Part shown: positions 398 to 33,350 of the stretch, in pieces
How positions within the stretch are numbered: the first letter of the stretch is position 1
Layout of the letters: each line of letters starts with the position of its first letter
Assembly (NCBI GenBank): GCA_947471505.1
Contig: CANIWM010000068.1
Span: forward strand, 1-33,483
DNA length: 33,483 nt
Direction: 5' to 3'
From: Chthoniobacteraceae bacterium
GTDB taxonomy: Bacteria; Verrucomicrobiota; Verrucomicrobiia; Chthoniobacterales; Chthoniobacteraceae
The notes under the pieces: model-generated
What the model was told of the DNA's origin: nothing
What the model saw: only the letters and a program-made list of their open reading frames with translations
The model's database searches: none
Translations under genes and position numbers: made by a program

Positions 398-649
398 GCA
401 AAGCCGCGACCTCCCCCTTCACCGCGAAGCCCTCCCCCTTCCCAGCAACGGCCATTGCTTTCAAGGAAACGGCCATTTCCGTACGGAAATGCCCTCCGCT
501 ATGAGAGCAGAACCCTCTGCTGTGAAAACAGCGCCCGCTGCCGTGAACGAAACACCCTCCGCCGTGAAAGCAGAGCCCTCTGCCGTGAAAACAAAGGCCA
601 TTGTTTTCAGAACAAAGGCCTTTGTTGTGGAACATCCCGCCCCCGCCCG
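398..649. repeat. Degenerate 21-nt tandem array of phased dyads
   Basis: About eleven to twelve units of 21 nt run head to tail with no spacers; the best-conserved are at 503-523, 524-544, 566-586, 587-607 and 608-628. A typical unit is a purine run, a six-base arm, a central GCCC or GGCC, the complementary arm, then a (C/T)GT-type end. Dyad centres fall at 451.5, 472.5, 513.5, 534.5, 576.5, 597.5 and 618.5, which is exact 21-nt phasing. The arms differ between units but still pair: GCAGAG/CTCTGC, AGCAGA/TCTGCT, CAGCG/CGCTG, AACAAAGG/CCTTTGTT, GGAAA/TTTCC and GCAA/TTGC. An 18-bp perfect palindrome, CATTTCCGTACGGAAATG, bridges two units at 474-491. The units at 482-502 and 545-565 have lost most pairing. 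Because 21 is a multiple of three, both strands also show 7-residue pseudo-repeats in translation; the pairing argues that selection, if any, is on nucleic acid. Confidence 0.7.
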
Positions 650-793
650 CAGGCTTTTAAGCAGCTCTATCAGAGAAAACCCCGCATCCGACCGAGAAAC
701 AGGCGCCCCTCGATGTTCCACAAGCCTTTCGCCTGCGTCACTGCCTTCGGCAATTGCTTGAGGGAATACCGAAGCTCTGTCTAGGGTGGAACG

Positions 794-2299
794 ATGAAGG
801 AACTTATATCGAAGTTTTGGAACGATGCGAAGGCAAGTCATCTCGTGTTCCAAGAAGATGGCGTGAGAGCGGTTGCTGCCTCGTTGCTCTCGAAGAGATT
901 CCTAATTGCGTCAGGACTGGCGGGGGCCGGTAAGACTAAACTCGCGCAAGCGTTTTCGCTGTGGGTGAGCCCTGCAACGGGCGCAAAAGATCCATTCACT
1001 CCGAATACACGATTTGAATCAGACCGTGTTACATACGTGGTGAAGAACTCTGATTCTATTGCTGTCGAGTTTTGGAATGAAGAGGGCGCGGACGGCCCCA
1101 CAAAAAACATGGTGCCTCGCGAGGTTATCGCCGAGTGGGCAGACTACATTGAGTCGAACGGAATACCTCAAACTACAATTACCCAAGTTATTTCCGACGC
1201 CATTGAGGCAAAAAGCCGATTCAGCGCATACCTTCATCGGTTTCGTCCGTTTCTGAAACTCGCAGCATTTGCGCTGATTAAAGCACGCCAGAATCCAAAC
1301 CCAGGTCGATGTTGCGAAGTCATCCCCGTGGGCGCAGATTGGACAGGAAATGATGCGATCCTCGGGTATCCCGATGGCATTGACCCAAAGCGCTATGTCA
1401 CACGGCCTGCGCTGGAGTTGATTCGCCGTGCGAACGACACTCCGGGCATTCCCCATTTCTTGATTCTGGATGAGATGAACCTCTCGCATGTGGAGCGGTA
1501 TTTTGCGGACATCCTTTCGGCGATTGAGTCGGGAGAGCCGATTCCGCTGTATGAGGGCGAGGACCGCTTGGCGAACGGAACGAAGGTGCCGCAACAACTC
1601 CCATTGCCGCCCAACCTTTTCATAATCGGGACGGTGAACGTGGATGAGACGACGTATATGTTTTCGCCGAAGGTGCTGGACCGAGCAAACGTCATCGAGT
1701 TTCGCATGGACGCGGACGAGATGAAGACTTACCTCGCGGAGCCGAATGCAGTGGACCTCGGTGACCTCGCGGGAGGCGGTGAGTCATTTGCAAAGTCATT
1801 TGCAGAAGCTGCGGCAAACAAGGACTGCGCGGTGCCGGAGTCGGTGAGCGGTGTCTTCAAGGATGAGATGATGCTGTTTTTCAACATTCTGAAGGAGCAT
1901 CACGCCGAGTTTGGGTTTCGCACGGGCTATGAGGCGGGGCGGTTCAAGCACTTTTACGAAAAGCTCGGCGCAGAGGGTGATTGGTTTCCCAAGGCGATGG
2001 ATGCTGTCATCGTGCAAAAGTTGCTGCCAAAGCTGCATGGCTCGCGGACGAAGCTGGAAGGGCTGCTGTGGGCGCTGGCGTATGCGTGCGGGGCGGAACG
2101 TGGTGAGCAGAAAGCGGAAGATTTCCTGAAAAGCTGTCAGGAGGCAGGCAAGGCGCAGAACGAGAGCACGCATTCGCCGGATGCTGTGGCAAAGGCGCTG
2201 AATGGCACCGAGGCTCGCTATCCGATGAGCTTTGAGAAGATTTTGCGGATGTATCGGAAGCTGATGCGGGATCAGTTTGTAACGTTTGCGGAGGCGTGA
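794..2299 (+). CDS. McrB-like AAA+ NTPase, motor subunit of a type IV (McrBC-like) defence system
   Basis: A 501-residue AAA+ protein related to McrB (COG1401). Visible motifs are a Walker A GLAGAGKT at 41-48, a Walker B LILDE at 223-227 within a segment that continues EMNLSHVERYFAD, and a sensor-1 region GTVNVDETT followed by SPKVLDRANVIEF, the usual McrB-type order. McrB proteins form NTP-driven hexamers that move or activate a partner nuclease on modified DNA. Whether this one uses GTP or ATP cannot be decided by eye. There is no obvious N-terminal DNA-reading domain before the AAA+ core, so target recognition may lie in the partner. The next gene, on the same strand about 180 nt away, encodes a DUF2357/PD-(D/E)XK protein, the expected partner. 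The first half looks poorer in GC than the housekeeping genes, consistent with transfer. ATG 794 follows AGGGTGG, a modest ribosome binding site. Confidence 0.82.
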   Translation: MKELISKFWNDAKASHLVFQEDGVRAVAASLLSKRFLIASGLAGAGKTKLAQAFSLWVSPATGAKDPFTPNTRFESDRVTYVVKNSDSIAVEFWNEEGADGPTKNMVPREVIAEWADYIESNGIPQTTITQVISDAIEAKSRFSAYLHRFRPFLKLAAFALIKARQNPNPGRCCEVIPVGADWTGNDAILGYPDGIDPKRYVTRPALELIRRANDTPGIPHFLILDEMNLSHVERYFADILSAIESGEPIPLYEGEDRLANGTKVPQQLPLPPNLFIIGTVNVDETTYMFSPKVLDRANVIEFRMDADEMKTYLAEPNAVDLGDLAGGGESFAKSFAEAAANKDCAVPESVSGVFKDEMMLFFNILKEHHAEFGFRTGYEAGRFKHFYEKLGAEGDWFPKAMDAVIVQKLLPKLHGSRTKLEGLLWALAYACGAERGEQKAEDFLKSCQEAGKAQNESTHSPDAVAKALNGTEARYPMSFEKILRMYRKLMRDQFVTFAEA

Positions 2300-2455: not shown

Positions 2456-2480
2456 TTTGTCTCGCACTGCTTCGCTGAGT

Positions 2481-4895
2481 ATGCTCCCGGAATATCCCAA
2501 TCCCGCAAAGGTGCCCTGCCGAAATGAGCAGGGGCGGGCGGTGGCGGAGATACAGATATGGCGTGCGCGCACCGAGGGCGCGGCGGATGACTTGATCCAA
2601 TGGAGCGCGAAGGATGCGGAGGCGCGAGGGGAAGAGCCGGTGCAGCTCCGCGAGCGGGGGCGGTATATTTATCGAATCGAGGGCGGCGGTGACGGCTGGC
2701 GGCTGGATGGCGTGGGAATTTCGCAAAGTCCGGCAGATGGGCGGAGCGGGTCTATCGAGCCGGGGGACCAGTGCGGGGTGTTGTCGCTCACTTTGCTAAA
2801 GGGCGATGCGGTGGTGGGGCGCGGTGCGGTGGAGGTGCGCTCGGTGAAGCTGACGTATCGCGAGGATTACCGGGGGATGCTGAATTTTATCGGCGAGAAG
2901 TGCGCGGGGCTGCTGCTGGATAGCAGGACGGCGACGCGGCTGCGGCTCTCGTCTGCATGGCGGGAGAACCCAGGGCTGATGGAGCAGCAACTGGAGTTTT
3001 TGCGGCATACGCTGGAGTCGGCGGCGTTTCGCGGGGCGGTGGATGAGGTGTTGCGAAATCCGCATCGGCTGCTGGAGGACGAACGGCGGGAGCAGTCGAT
3101 CTCGCGTCCGTTCAAAGCGGGGAAGGAGTTTGCGCGTCAAGTGGGGCGGGCGGGAGAACGCGTGGCGCTGCCGGAGGGGCATCCGCTACGGGCGGTGCTG
3201 CCGAGCCTGCCCGCGAAGATCACGGTGACGCGGCGGACGGACTTTCTGGATACTGTGGAGAACCGCTTTGTGAAAATGGTGCTGGTGGAGTTCCGGGATT
3301 TTCTCGCGGAGGTGGCGGGGTCCCTCGGGCGCGCTGCGGAGACGGGAAATAACGCGCGCCTTTTGCGAGAGGTGGCGCGGCTGCGGGGGCGGCTGGATGC
3401 GCTGCTGAGCCGTGGCTTTTTGCCGGATGTCTCGCGCCCGGAACTGCTGCCGCTGGGGAGCCCGGTGCTGCAACGGAAAGCGGGGTATCGCGAACTGCTG
3501 CACGCGTGGCTGCAATTTCACGCCGGAGCGCAATTGGCGTGGGACGGCGGCGCGGAGGTGTGGCAGGGCGGTGCGAGGAATGTGGCGACGCTTTACGAGT
3601 ATTGGTTGTTCTTTCAACTGGAGGCGCTTTTCCGGGAGAAGTTCGCATGCACGCAGCCGCTGCACGCGGTGCTGGTGGAGACGGATGCGGGGCTGCCTCG
3701 GCTGAAATTGCAACGGGGAGTAGAGCTGAAGACGCCGGTGGGCGGTGCGTGGTCGGCAATCGCGAAGCGTCCGTTGAAGGCAGAGTTTCAGTTCAACAAA
3801 AAGTTTCTGCGGAACACGGACCACAAGGTAGGCGGGAGTTGGACGCGGGGTGTTCAGCCGGACTACACACTGAGCATCTGGCCTGCGGAGTTTTCGAAGG
3901 AAAAGGCGGAGGAGTGCGATGCGCTGGCGCATGTCCACTTTGACGCGAAGTATCGCGTGGAAAAAATCGCTGCGATGTTTGGCGCGGCGGACGACGACGA
4001 GGTAATCCAAGACCACGCGGAGTCGGCCACGGCGAAACCGACCGCTGCGAAATACGCAGACCTTCTCAAGATGCACGCGTATCGAGATGCGATCCGGCGC
4101 TCGGCAGGCGCGTATGTGCTGTATCCGGGGAATGCAGGCGATGGGCGAAAGTTTGAGCAGTTTCACGAATTGCTGCCGGGGCTGGGGGCATTTGCGATTC
4201 ACCCAAAGGCGGATGGGAGCGCGGAGGGGATGGGCGAACTGAGGAAGTTTCTCGACGATGTGATCGGGCATTTATCCAACCGAACCACGTCGCGGGAGCG
4301 GGCGAGCTTCCACACAGCGGAGTCTTACACGCTGCGTGAGGATACCGTGCAATACGGCTCGCTGGTGCTGAACGAGCGGGATGTGATGAGCGATACGGGC
4401 CGAGCGATCCCGCCTGCGGAGCATCATGTGGTGGTGGCGTGGTATGATTCGGAGGCGCAGCTCGCGTGGACGTTGGAGAAAGGCATCGCGAATGTGAGGC
4501 TGGGCAAGCGCCGAGGGACTTGGCATGTGCCGCCGGAGTTTGCATCGGCGCGGCATTTGTTGCTGCGGTCGTATGTTGGGGAAGAAAAGCCGGTGTTGCT
4601 GAAGCTCAAAGACGATGTGCCGGGATACAAAATCTACAGCGCGGCAGACCTGCTGAAAGCGGGCTATCCGGGGAATGCGAAAGGGGAAATCTACGCCGTC
4701 TTTGAAGTGGAGCGTGACGATGCGTATGCCGGGCGGGAGTGGGATGGCGCGAAATTGATGGAGCTAATCGAGGAGTTTGAAAAACGCCGAAACTACCGGG
4801 GAAGCGGCTTGGGTAGAACGTCGCCATTTCCTCGGGTGATGAGTCTGCGCGAGCTGCTGCAAGCGATGAAGGGCTTCACGCAGGGGGCCGCGTGA
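2481..4895 (+). CDS. DUF2357 / PD-(D/E)XK nuclease protein, partner of the McrB-like ATPase
   Basis: An 804-residue protein of the COG1700-like type (DUF2357 plus a DUF524-type nuclease), a family found beside McrB-like ATPases in defence loci. The N-terminal half is the DUF2357-like region. The C-terminal part holds a nuclease core with LYEYW upstream, a PD in QPDYTL at 460-461, and D488-A-K490 in FDAKYR, the expected PD...DxK spacing. The inferred role is DNA cleavage driven by the preceding ATPase. I chose ATG 2481; an in-frame TTG at 2457 would add eight residues but lies against the inverted repeat, and no good ribosome binding site decides between them. The gene ends 43 nt before a convergent gene. 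It could equally act on RNA or only bind nucleic acid; the catalytic motif is seen, the activity is inferred. Confidence 0.8.
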   Translation: MLPEYPNPAKVPCRNEQGRAVAEIQIWRARTEGAADDLIQWSAKDAEARGEEPVQLRERGRYIYRIEGGGDGWRLDGVGISQSPADGRSGSIEPGDQCGVLSLTLLKGDAVVGRGAVEVRSVKLTYREDYRGMLNFIGEKCAGLLLDSRTATRLRLSSAWRENPGLMEQQLEFLRHTLESAAFRGAVDEVLRNPHRLLEDERREQSISRPFKAGKEFARQVGRAGERVALPEGHPLRAVLPSLPAKITVTRRTDFLDTVENRFVKMVLVEFRDFLAEVAGSLGRAAETGNNARLLREVARLRGRLDALLSRGFLPDVSRPELLPLGSPVLQRKAGYRELLHAWLQFHAGAQLAWDGGAEVWQGGARNVATLYEYWLFFQLEALFREKFACTQPLHAVLVETDAGLPRLKLQRGVELKTPVGGAWSAIAKRPLKAEFQFNKKFLRNTDHKVGGSWTRGVQPDYTLSIWPAEFSKEKAEECDALAHVHFDAKYRVEKIAAMFGAADDDEVIQDHAESATAKPTAAKYADLLKMHAYRDAIRRSAGAYVLYPGNAGDGRKFEQFHELLPGLGAFAIHPKADGSAEGMGELRKFLDDVIGHLSNRTTSRERASFHTAESYTLREDTVQYGSLVLNERDVMSDTGRAIPPAEHHVVVAWYDSEAQLAWTLEKGIANVRLGKRRGTWHVPPEFASARHLLLRSYVGEEKPVLLKLKDDVPGYKIYSAADLLKAGYPGNAKGEIYAVFEVERDDAYAGREWDGAKLMELIEEFEKRRNYRGSGLGRTSPFPRVMSLRELLQAMKGFTQGAA

Positions 4896-30185: not shown

Positions 30186-33100
30186 ATGACCGCACTTCAA
30201 ACCATCCTCACCGACTACCGCGCCACCTCCCAATCCGAGCGCGAAAAAGGCACCTACTTCGAGGAACTCATCCGCACCTTCTTCCGCTTCGAGGCCAGCT
30301 TTGCCGACCTCTACTCCGACGTGTGGCTCTTTGCCGATTGGGCGAAAGAACACGGCTTCTCCGCAAAGGACACCGGCATTGATCTCGTCGCCAAGACTCA
30401 CGGCACCGAAGAGTTCCACGCCATCCAGTGCAAATGCTACGCCCCCGAATACCGCGTGCGGAAGGCCGACATAGACAGCTTCTTCACCGCCTCCGGGCAA
30501 AAGCCCTTCACCCAGCGCATCATCGTCACCACCACGAACGACTGGAGCGAAAACGCCGAGGCCGCCCTCAGCAACCAGCAGCCGCCTGTCTATAAAATCG
30601 ACCTCCTCGATCTGGAAAACTCGCAGATTGATTGGGCGAAGTATCAGCCCAGGAAACCGCCCGAGCTGAAGCCGAAATACGACATCAACGCGCCGCGCTC
30701 CAGGCATCAAAAAAGCGCTCTGAACAATGTCGCCCTCGGCCTCAAAAACGCCGACCGTGGCAAGCTCATCATGGCGTGCGGCACCGGCAAGACATTCACC
30801 AGCCTCAAGATTGCCGAAGAGCTGGCGGGCAAAGGCAAGCGCGTGCTCTTCCTCGTCCCGTCGCTGAATCTTCTTTCGCAGACTCTCAGCGAATGGACCC
30901 AGCAGAGCCAGACACCGCTGCACAGCTTCGCCGTCTGCTCCGATGCCGAGGTCGGCAAAAAGCGCGACGCCAGCGACGAAGACATCGTCCAGACTTTCGC
31001 CCACGAACTACGCTACCCCGCCACCACCGATGCCAAGCGCCTCGCCTACGAGATCGCCAAGCGCCACGACGCCCAGCACATGAGCGTCGTCTTCTCCACG
31101 TATCACTCGCTCGACGTCATCAGCCGCGCACAGCATCTCCACGGGCTGGCACCGTTCGACTTCGTCATCTGCGACGAAGCCCACCGCACCACCGGCGCGA
31201 CGTTTGGCGACGACGACGAGAGCAACTTCGTCAAAATCCACGACGCCGAGTTCATCAGAGCCGCCAAGCGCCTGTACATGACCGCCACCCCGCGCATCTA
31301 TGCAGACAGCGCAAAGGCCGTGGCCGAGCGCGATAGCATCGCCCTCGCCTCCATGGACGACGAGACGATCTACGGCAAACAACTCCACGTCATCACCTTC
31401 TCCGAAGCCGTCGAACTAAAGCTCCTCACCGACTACAAAGTCCTCGTCCTCACCATCGACGAAGCCCACGTCTCCGCCCGCCTGCAAGACTTGCTCAAGG
31501 ACGACAACAACCAGCTCAAAGTGGACGACGCCGCCCGCATCATCGGTTGCTGGAAAGCCCTCGCAAAACAGGGTCTCGCCCAAGACCTCAGCTTCGACCC
31601 CGAGCCGATGCGCCGCGCCGTCGCGTTCTGTCAGGTCATCGAGCGGCAAAAGGGCAGCGGCAGACACAAAGTCAGCTCCAAGCAAATCGCCGGCATGTTC
31701 CAGAAAGTGGTCGATGCCTACGTCGCGCAGGAGGAAAGCGACGTCTCCCTGCAATGCGAAGCCGCCCATGTGGACGGCACCATGAACGCCTCCCAAAAAG
31801 AGGAAAAGCTCGCGTGGCTCAAAGCCGATGCCCCGGAGAACACCTGCCGCATCCTCAGCAACGTCCGCTGCCTTTCCGAAGGCGTCGATGTCCCCGCGCT
31901 CGATGCCGTCCTGTTCCTCACCCCGCGCAACTCGCAGGTGGATGTCGTCCAGTCCGTCGGGCGCGTCATGCGCCGCACGGCGGATGGCAAAAAGAAGCTC
32001 GGCTACGTCATCCTCCCCGTCGTCATCCCCGCTGGCATGGAGCCGCACGAAGCCCTCAACGACAACAAAGTCTATAAAGTCGTCTGGGATGTCTTGCAGG
32101 CCCTCCGCTCCCACGACGACCGGTTCGACGCCTTCATCAACAAGCTCGACCTCATCGGCAAAGACCCCCGCAAGATGGAAGTCATCTGCATCACCGACAA
32201 GATCAGCAAAAAGAGCGATAAGCCCAAAGGCGGCACCAGCAAAGAGAAGACCGGGCAGGGCCAGCACTCCATCGGCGAGCCCGAGGGGAAATACGAGGCC
32301 GAGGTCCAGGGCGAGCTCCCATTCCAAGTCGGCGAACTCGAAAAAGCCCTCTACGCAAAAGTCGTCAAAAAGTGCGGCAACCGGAACCACTGGGAAGAAT
32401 GGTCCAATGAGATCGCCAAGATTGCCCAGACACACATCGCCCGCATCACCGCCATCGTCTCCGACCCAAAGAACACCAAGGAAGTCGCCGCCTTCAAAGG
32501 CTTCGCCAACGAACTCCGCGACGACCTCAACGACTCCATCACCGACCCCGAAGTCATCGAGATGCTCGCCCAGCACCTCATCACCAAGCCCGTCTTCGAT
32601 GCCCTCTTTGAGGACTACTCCTTTGCCAGCCACAACCCCGTCTCCGTAGCCATGCAGCAAGTGCTCGACGTATTGCAGCAGCACCGGCTGGAGAAAGAAG
32701 CCGACACCCTGGAGAAATTCTACGCCAGCGTGAAGATGAAGGCCTCCGGCATCGACAACGCCGAGGCCAAGCAAAAGATCGTCGTCGAGCTCTACGACAA
32801 ATTCTTCCGCAACGCCTTCCCGAAAATGACCGAGCGGCTCGGCATCGTCTATACCCCCGTGGAGGTCGTGGACTTCATCATCCACAGCATCAATGACCTC
32901 TTGCAGTCCGAGTTTGGCCTGACGCTCGGCAGCAAAGACGTCCACATCATCGACCCCTTCACCGGCACCGGGACCTTCGTCACGCGCCTGCTCCAGAGTG
33001 GCCTCATCAAAAAGGAGGAACTCCCCCACAAATACCGGCACGAAATCCACGCCAACGAAATCGTCCTCCTCGCCTACTACATCGCCGCCATCAATATCGA

Positions 33101-33350
33101 GGCCGTCTATCACGCCCTCGTCGGCGGCAAATACGAGCCGTTCCAAGGCATCTGCCTCACCGACACCTTCCAGCTCTACGAAAAGGGCGACATGATCAGC
33201 GACCTCCTCGTTAACAACAGCGCCCGCCGCAAACGCCAGAAGGCTCTCCCCGTCCGCGTCATCATGGGGAACCCGCCGTATTCCGTCGGGCAAAAGAGCG
33301 ATAACGACGAAGCTGCAAACGTAAAATATCCCCACTTAGGGAATGCCTGA
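30186..33350 (+). CDS. Type ISP restriction-modification enzyme, 3' end lost to an insertion
   Basis: The first 1054 residues or so of a single-chain restriction-modification translocase (LlaGI/LlaBIII-like type ISP). An Mrr-like PD-(D/E)XK nuclease opens the protein, with D66 in DTGID and Q81-C-K83. A superfamily 2 helicase follows, with Walker A ACGTGKT at 197-203, DEAH at 330-333, TATPR, and QSVGRVMRR. After a helical coupler comes the N6-adenine methyltransferase, with motif I DPFTGTGTF from 923 and motif IV NPPY at 1029-1032. Homologues go on for about 500 residues with the rest of the methyltransferase and the target-recognition domain. Here the frame runs YPHL, then GNA and a stop, where sequence unlike the family begins (about 33337). 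Without target recognition the product cannot be a working restriction system; loss of methylation with an intact nuclease part would be harmful unless it is inactive or not expressed. Confidence 0.88.
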   Translation: MTALQTILTDYRATSQSEREKGTYFEELIRTFFRFEASFADLYSDVWLFADWAKEHGFSAKDTGIDLVAKTHGTEEFHAIQCKCYAPEYRVRKADIDSFFTASGQKPFTQRIIVTTTNDWSENAEAALSNQQPPVYKIDLLDLENSQIDWAKYQPRKPPELKPKYDINAPRSRHQKSALNNVALGLKNADRGKLIMACGTGKTFTSLKIAEELAGKGKRVLFLVPSLNLLSQTLSEWTQQSQTPLHSFAVCSDAEVGKKRDASDEDIVQTFAHELRYPATTDAKRLAYEIAKRHDAQHMSVVFSTYHSLDVISRAQHLHGLAPFDFVICDEAHRTTGATFGDDDESNFVKIHDAEFIRAAKRLYMTATPRIYADSAKAVAERDSIALASMDDETIYGKQLHVITFSEAVELKLLTDYKVLVLTIDEAHVSARLQDLLKDDNNQLKVDDAARIIGCWKALAKQGLAQDLSFDPEPMRRAVAFCQVIERQKGSGRHKVSSKQIAGMFQKVVDAYVAQEESDVSLQCEAAHVDGTMNASQKEEKLAWLKADAPENTCRILSNVRCLSEGVDVPALDAVLFLTPRNSQVDVVQSVGRVMRRTADGKKKLGYVILPVVIPAGMEPHEALNDNKVYKVVWDVLQALRSHDDRFDAFINKLDLIGKDPRKMEVICITDKISKKSDKPKGGTSKEKTGQGQHSIGEPEGKYEAEVQGELPFQVGELEKALYAKVVKKCGNRNHWEEWSNEIAKIAQTHIARITAIVSDPKNTKEVAAFKGFANELRDDLNDSITDPEVIEMLAQHLITKPVFDALFEDYSFASHNPVSVAMQQVLDVLQQHRLEKEADTLEKFYASVKMKASGIDNAEAKQKIVVELYDKFFRNAFPKMTERLGIVYTPVEVVDFIIHSINDLLQSEFGLTLGSKDVHIIDPFTGTGTFVTRLLQSGLIKKEELPHKYRHEIHANEIVLLAYYIAAINIEAVYHALVGGKYEPFQGICLTDTFQLYEKGDMISDLLVNNSARRKRQKALPVRVIMGNPPYSVGQKSDNDEAANVKYPHLGNA

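Follow-up and report, generated by a model that had tools for sequence, protein, structure and literature searches.

The 21-nt tandem array in the window (the whole 33,483-nt stretch of DNA analysed here, from genome G000) is one member of a class of non-coding, lineage-restricted minisatellites that are quantised in steps of 21 bp and mostly palindromic, and for which no prior description was found in the literature searched, which excluded most subscription papers. Arrays of this class are found on the promoter side of genes, share an exact period and an inverted symmetry, carry sequences that mostly differ from locus to locus, and are nearly restricted to one genus. The explanation we favour, with a probability of about 40%, is that they are intergenic DNA minisatellites locked to 21 bp or its multiples, mostly built of inverted-repeat units, that grew by duplication and persist in a lineage devoid of SbcCD.

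The window array is real and can be recognised by several independent measures. Identity within 398-649 amounts to 0.58 at a lag of 21, 0.49 at 42 and 0.47 at 63, with the other tested lags at or below about 0.36, and a 21-nt unit at 513-593 was recovered independently by TRF. Weaker unit-like sequence begins at about 396, ahead of the array proper at 409-632. Dyads are centred at 451.5, 472.5, 513.5, 534.5, 576.5, 597.5 and 618.5, and five to seven of the seven arm positions are complementary in each. The original prediction had placed dyads at exact 21-nt intervals. Seven phased dyads are indeed present beyond chance, but the step from 472.5 to 513.5 measures 41 nt, so that the phase falls short by one base (a 1-nt slip), and the units at 492.5 and 555.5 within the run form just 2/7 and 1/7 pairs and hence are not dyads. 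With the slip disallowed, the best-phase dyad count is 5, a value reached by 0 of 1000 dinucleotide shuffles (p = 0.001). Under a stricter null, in which the unit columns are permuted and the tandem repeat is kept, the phased dyads retain a p value of 0.004. Shuffles of the same composition therefore do not match the phased dyads. The correspondence of the 21-nt unit to two helical turns is supported, as is the view that this is no CRISPR array, the units abutting directly with no spacers between them. The array end, previously put about 145 nt before the McrB-like gene, is corrected to about 632, where the repetitive sequence stops 161 nt before the start codon. Two adjacent palindromic units (590-605 with 611-626) could pair into a 16-bp hairpin. 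Overall, the original prediction had the right pattern and the wrong neighbour, and overstated both the exactness of the phase and the covariation.

Table 1. Coordinates of the array, its flanking repeats and the adjacent genes in the window.
Feature	Position	Strand	Basis or remark
Tandem array, about 10 diverged 21-nt units, consensus near GTGAAAGCAGAGCCCTCTGCC	409..632	.	Lag-21 scan, TRF, orthologous array in G032
Seven dyads and one 1-nt slip	444..626	.	Dyad count
Final ~77 nt of array and edge, nearly identical in G032	564..640	.	Comparison with G032
Left arm TTGTGGAACATC of 12-nt inverted repeat	625..636	+	GTGGAACAT found after the G032 array too
Right arm GATGTTCCACAA of 12-nt inverted repeat	712..723	+	ATGTTCCAC also present in G032
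McrB-like AAA protein, next gene	794..2299	+	No Pfam match; PADLOC PDC-M26A, 136 bits
DUF2357 and PDDEXK_7 nuclease protein, McrC-like partner, incidental	2457..4895	+	Domain search

Further features are found around the array and at the ends of the window. The inverted repeat formed by 625-636 and 712-723 encloses a 75-nt stretch and is also present in G032, a genome of the same genus; the GTGGAACAT/ATGTTCCAC motif recurs near three arrays (L012 4010-4110, L026 17018 and L032 15959). Upstream of the McrB-like gene, a 72-nt segment at 702-771 is 81% identical to G000:C25:30906-30977, which lies on another contig upstream of an unrelated gene and near another 21-nt array. A MITE-like element of 143 bp occupies positions 1-143 of the window; its terminal inverted repeats are 26 nt long and 85% complementary. 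The genome contains at least 40 base-identical copies of it, each at the end of a contig; the element evidently interrupts the assembly, and its activity looks recent. A large restriction-modification protein is encoded at 30186-33350 and combines an Mrr_cat_2 nuclease, a ResIII helicase, an ISP coupler and an N6_Mtase (PADLOC type IIG, 1653 bits); its C-terminal portion is apparently lost at the end of the contig, given that the matched profile is longer.

The array has no special tie to the defence locus in front of which it was first noticed. G032 carries an orthologous array that is 76% identical to the window array and contains one additional 21-nt unit. This array is located not beside McrB but 65 nt after a gene for a putative endonuclease-I-type secreted nuclease, and none of the nine genus mates, G032 included, has the McrB-like gene of the window. 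The defence link is incidental, given that a genus mate keeps the array without the McrB gene. A role as an operator array controlling the McrBC-like genes of the window, which the position of the array upstream of the McrB-like start codon would favour, is thus very improbable and already largely refuted by the G032 orthologue and by sister arrays that precede many unrelated genes. In the alignment of the two genomes, the sole gap inside the orthologous array is 21 nt long, and the surroundings of the array contain many gaps. As in a VNTR, unit number differs between relatives, here by one unit between the two genomes compared. Over its final ~77 nt the array is near-identical in G000 and G032, more so than in its remaining part, which suggests sequence constraint or recent transfer and is not predicted by pure duplication. 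No match to the window array that would indicate a plasmid or viral origin was found in plasmids or IMG/VR.

Arrays with periods of 21 nt or its multiples recur throughout this genome. We scanned 1.62 Mb of G000 (27% of the genome) at every lag from 10 to 90 and obtained 20 segments at a lag of 21, 24 at 42 and 18 at 63, with 1 at 20 and 0 at both 22 and 24. In the same 1.62 Mb, 28 of 35 intergenic TRF repeats with a period of at least 10 (80%) are exactly 21n, namely sixteen of period 21, nine of 42, two of 63 and one of 84. Extrapolation from this sample gives about 100 such arrays in the whole genome. TRF and lag scans both confirm head-to-tail tandem copies of one unit, the defining organization of a prokaryotic minisatellite. 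Arrays of the same kind are found in genus mates G025, G028, G029, G032 and G033, and at least one is present in G039, which belongs to another genus of the family. In the small samples on which the distribution outside the genus is based, a 21n period was seen in 0 of 14 intergenic TRF repeats from four other genera of the family (0.55 Mb) and in 4 of 25 from wider relatives (1.21 Mb). Unit sequences are locus-specific, for example GAGAAGGTCTTCTCAGCCACG, GACAGAATCATTCTGCGACGG, CGTCAGCCAGAGATTCTGGCT or ACCTT-loop-AAGGT, a few duplicated families excepted; a second 21-nt array on another contig is unrelated in sequence to that of the window. The arrays are not all independent because some are paralogues (L023/L034 and L042/L155). 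The originally proposed search for arrays elsewhere did yield 21-nt arrays at other loci; their neighbours are genes of many unrelated kinds. An operator- or iteron-like motif common to the loci finds no support, as the other arrays are unrelated in unit sequence. The longest array seen (L209 9043-9777, in G033) spans 735 nt; its 21-nt units alternate, which gives a period of 42 nt. One further 21-nt array (L189 19272-19570) lies inside a called gene, reads as a heptapeptide repeat of the SGNANVK type and may be a coding relative of the arrays found between genes.

The arrays show inverted symmetry beyond what their repetition and composition provide. As a null we permuted the 21 columns of each array, which keeps both properties. 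Against this null, inverted symmetry over 26 arrays reaches a Stouffer score of 7.8 with arms of 7 and 9.7 with arms of 9, while the mirror-symmetry control yields -0.6 and -0.9 in the same test and synthetic arrays assembled from genomic 21-mers picked at random have an average z of 0.0. Single-strand DNA folding compared with column-permuted arrays likewise results in a Stouffer score of -10.1. Dyads are lacking in about one third of the arrays. The idea that an array forms a single long rod around a fixed axis was rejected, the excess being found mainly in alternating 42-nt-unit arrays, where permutation of unit order is itself disruptive.

Covariation of the dyad arms, part of the original prediction, is not established. 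In the window array, own arms form 48 pairs against 39 ± 2.9 for swapped arms (p = 0.003), a comparison in which the slip was fitted to the dyads and the units share a common ancestry. Class-wide, little remains over ancestry controls: in 26 arrays the own-arm excess is hardly separable from them, an unbiased choice of phase abolishes the effect across arrays, and a split-half test gives a mean z of 0.5-0.8, near the mirror control of 0.4-0.5. A class-wide covariation score of Stouffer 9.7 was discarded as biased because the phase had been picked on the same data; unbiased versions show little or nothing. Against the orthologous array in G032, changed pairs are mostly broken: 36 of the 53 paired positions are unchanged, 2 are compensatory and 15 are broken; 10 pairs are gained. 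A symmetric consensus without covariation would be easier to reconcile with DNA half-sites, or with duplication that favours palindromes, than with RNA helices.

These results bear on the possibility that the arrays are transcribed and act as hairpin-rich leaders or small RNAs, which we regard as quite unlikely. Predicted folds of the window array are strong (z of -4.9 for the plus and -7.2 for the minus strand, with similar values in G032) and would be compatible with such a role, but tandem palindromic units fold well regardless of role. The string of mini-hairpins that had been envisaged does not appear in the models, in which both strands fold by long-range pairing between units and the best fold belongs to the minus strand, antisense to McrB, the next gene. 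There is little class-wide covariation, and broken pairs far outnumber compensatory ones between the orthologues. The arrays have no Rfam match, and a known RNA family was rejected on this ground. The balance of G-U against A-C mismatches was also considered as a marker of which strand is transcribed and rejected, since the wobble asymmetry mostly follows composition.

The intergenic arrays are located on the promoter side of genes. The 18 arrays between called genes comprise 11 in divergent, 7 in codirectional and 0 in convergent arrangement, and the background of intergenic regions of at least 250 bp contains 58 divergent, 108 codirectional and 33 convergent cases. Distances between arrays and genes are approximate because genes were called with a simple codon-usage script. 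Neighbours are of many unrelated kinds, with no recurrent neighbour gene; the L042/L155 family occupies several loci with differing neighbours, and the family of L166 with L179/L180 keeps its neighbour between species. Such a location could indicate a functional DNA platform, on which a DNA-binding protein that oligomerises, covers two helical turns and is not strict about sequence (of nucleoid type or a regulator) would bind dyads lying on one face of the helix upstream of promoters; the arrays would be retained for this purpose. The exact quantum of 21 bp, a symmetry that lacks arm covariation, as half-sites would, the promoter-side location and the one family with a retained gene neighbour all argue for this reading. 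We nevertheless judge it rather unlikely, as there is no motif common to the loci, neighbours are of unrelated kinds, no candidate protein is at hand and some arrays have no dyads.

The arrays are not degenerate coding sequence. A heptapeptide repeat would account for a unit of 21 = 3 x 7 nt and for the one open frame that crosses the array in G000 as well as in G032, but substitutions between the two arrays show no bias by codon position (15/75, 13/75 and 19/74), the open frame diverges downstream, and sister arrays contain stops in all frames (six of six in L023 and L030). Protein-coding heptad repeats were rejected on these grounds, and this origin is extremely improbable, being refuted on present evidence.

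In the minisatellite model that we favour, arrays would be enlarged by local tandem duplication in 21-bp steps, and hairpins of palindromic units formed in single-stranded DNA during replication may aid this duplication. Upstream of genes, whole two-turn steps would survive because they leave the helical phase unchanged. No single dedicated regulator would then read the array sequence, and the McrBC-like neighbour would be incidental. Persistence of the arrays would be due to the lineage lacking SbcCD, a nuclease acting on hairpins and cruciforms. In E. coli, hairpins and palindromes are established targets of SbcCD cleavage. Because arrays of palindromic units can fold back over much of their length, we asked whether the nuclease is missing from this lineage. 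No SbcD scores above the cut-off in any of the ten genus genomes or in G039, and the protein is present in most of g2, g3 and g8. SbcC follows the SbcD pattern, though every family member falls below a stricter SbcC cut-off. G001 and G016 lack SbcCD as well, with no array in the 189 and 80 kb sampled. The evidence that SbcCD loss permits the arrays is thus suggestive only and may come down to one or two loss events. Hairpins are not the whole cause, given the third of arrays that is not dyadic.

The minisatellite model gives no reason for a step that is 21 and never 20, 22, 10 or 11. Two helical turns are the natural candidate for the reason behind this length. An active ruler, in which 21-nt units are inserted or copied by some enzyme akin to a polymerase, integrase or reverse transcriptase, would explain the single exact length over sequence-unrelated arrays and the restriction of longer periods to the multiples 42, 63 and 84. 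It is nonetheless unlikely: neither Y1/RAYT transposases nor reverse transcriptases follow the arrays, a recurrent neighbour gene is lacking, and the units in one array are related by descent. A broader possibility, doubtful at present, is that the lineage keeps its ~100 promoter-side arrays for shared geometry only (exact two-turn spacing, mostly short dyads, free sequence), either as a structure-read element bound by some nucleoid or transcription protein or as the product of a process with a 21-nt ruler.

Periods of bacterial tandem repeats are normally scattered, and one base-exact period despite mostly unrelated sequences points to either a molecular ruler or strong selection on helical phase, both of which are directly testable. 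If SbcCD loss allows the arrays, the lineage would offer a natural experiment on how other genomes exclude hairpin-forming DNA. Palindromic amphipathic repeat coding elements (PARCEL) are coding units of 75 nt; they likewise consist of tandem dyad-symmetric units, whereas the arrays described here have 21-nt units and are non-coding. Iterons and operator arrays share direct repeats of about two helical turns and dyads on one helix face, but there one protein binds a common sequence, while in the present class each locus has a sequence of its own. CRISPR arrays are similar in their regular spacing and partly palindromic unit, but combine a constant repeat with unique spacers; here units abut and the whole unit drifts, and with no spacers and no cas gene among the neighbours seen this assignment was rejected. 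REP and BIME elements (GTAG and CGTC tagged, PMC3733652) are also short intergenic palindromes in many copies. REPs have a conserved sequence and follow the RAYT transposase, in contrast to the present arrays, which have no common sequence and do not follow Y1 transposases. A REP/RAYT system was accordingly rejected, Y1 proteins occurring both with and without arrays and a common tag sequence being absent. Prokaryotic satellites and minisatellites, as surveyed by Subirana and Messeguer (2019; PMC6749651), are likewise tandem repeats scattered in the bacterial genome, partly intergenic and mostly locus-specific. In that survey repeat lengths vary and many of the repeats are coding; the sections consulted describe neither a 21-bp quantum nor palindromic units, whereas here 80% of intergenic repeats have a period of 21n.
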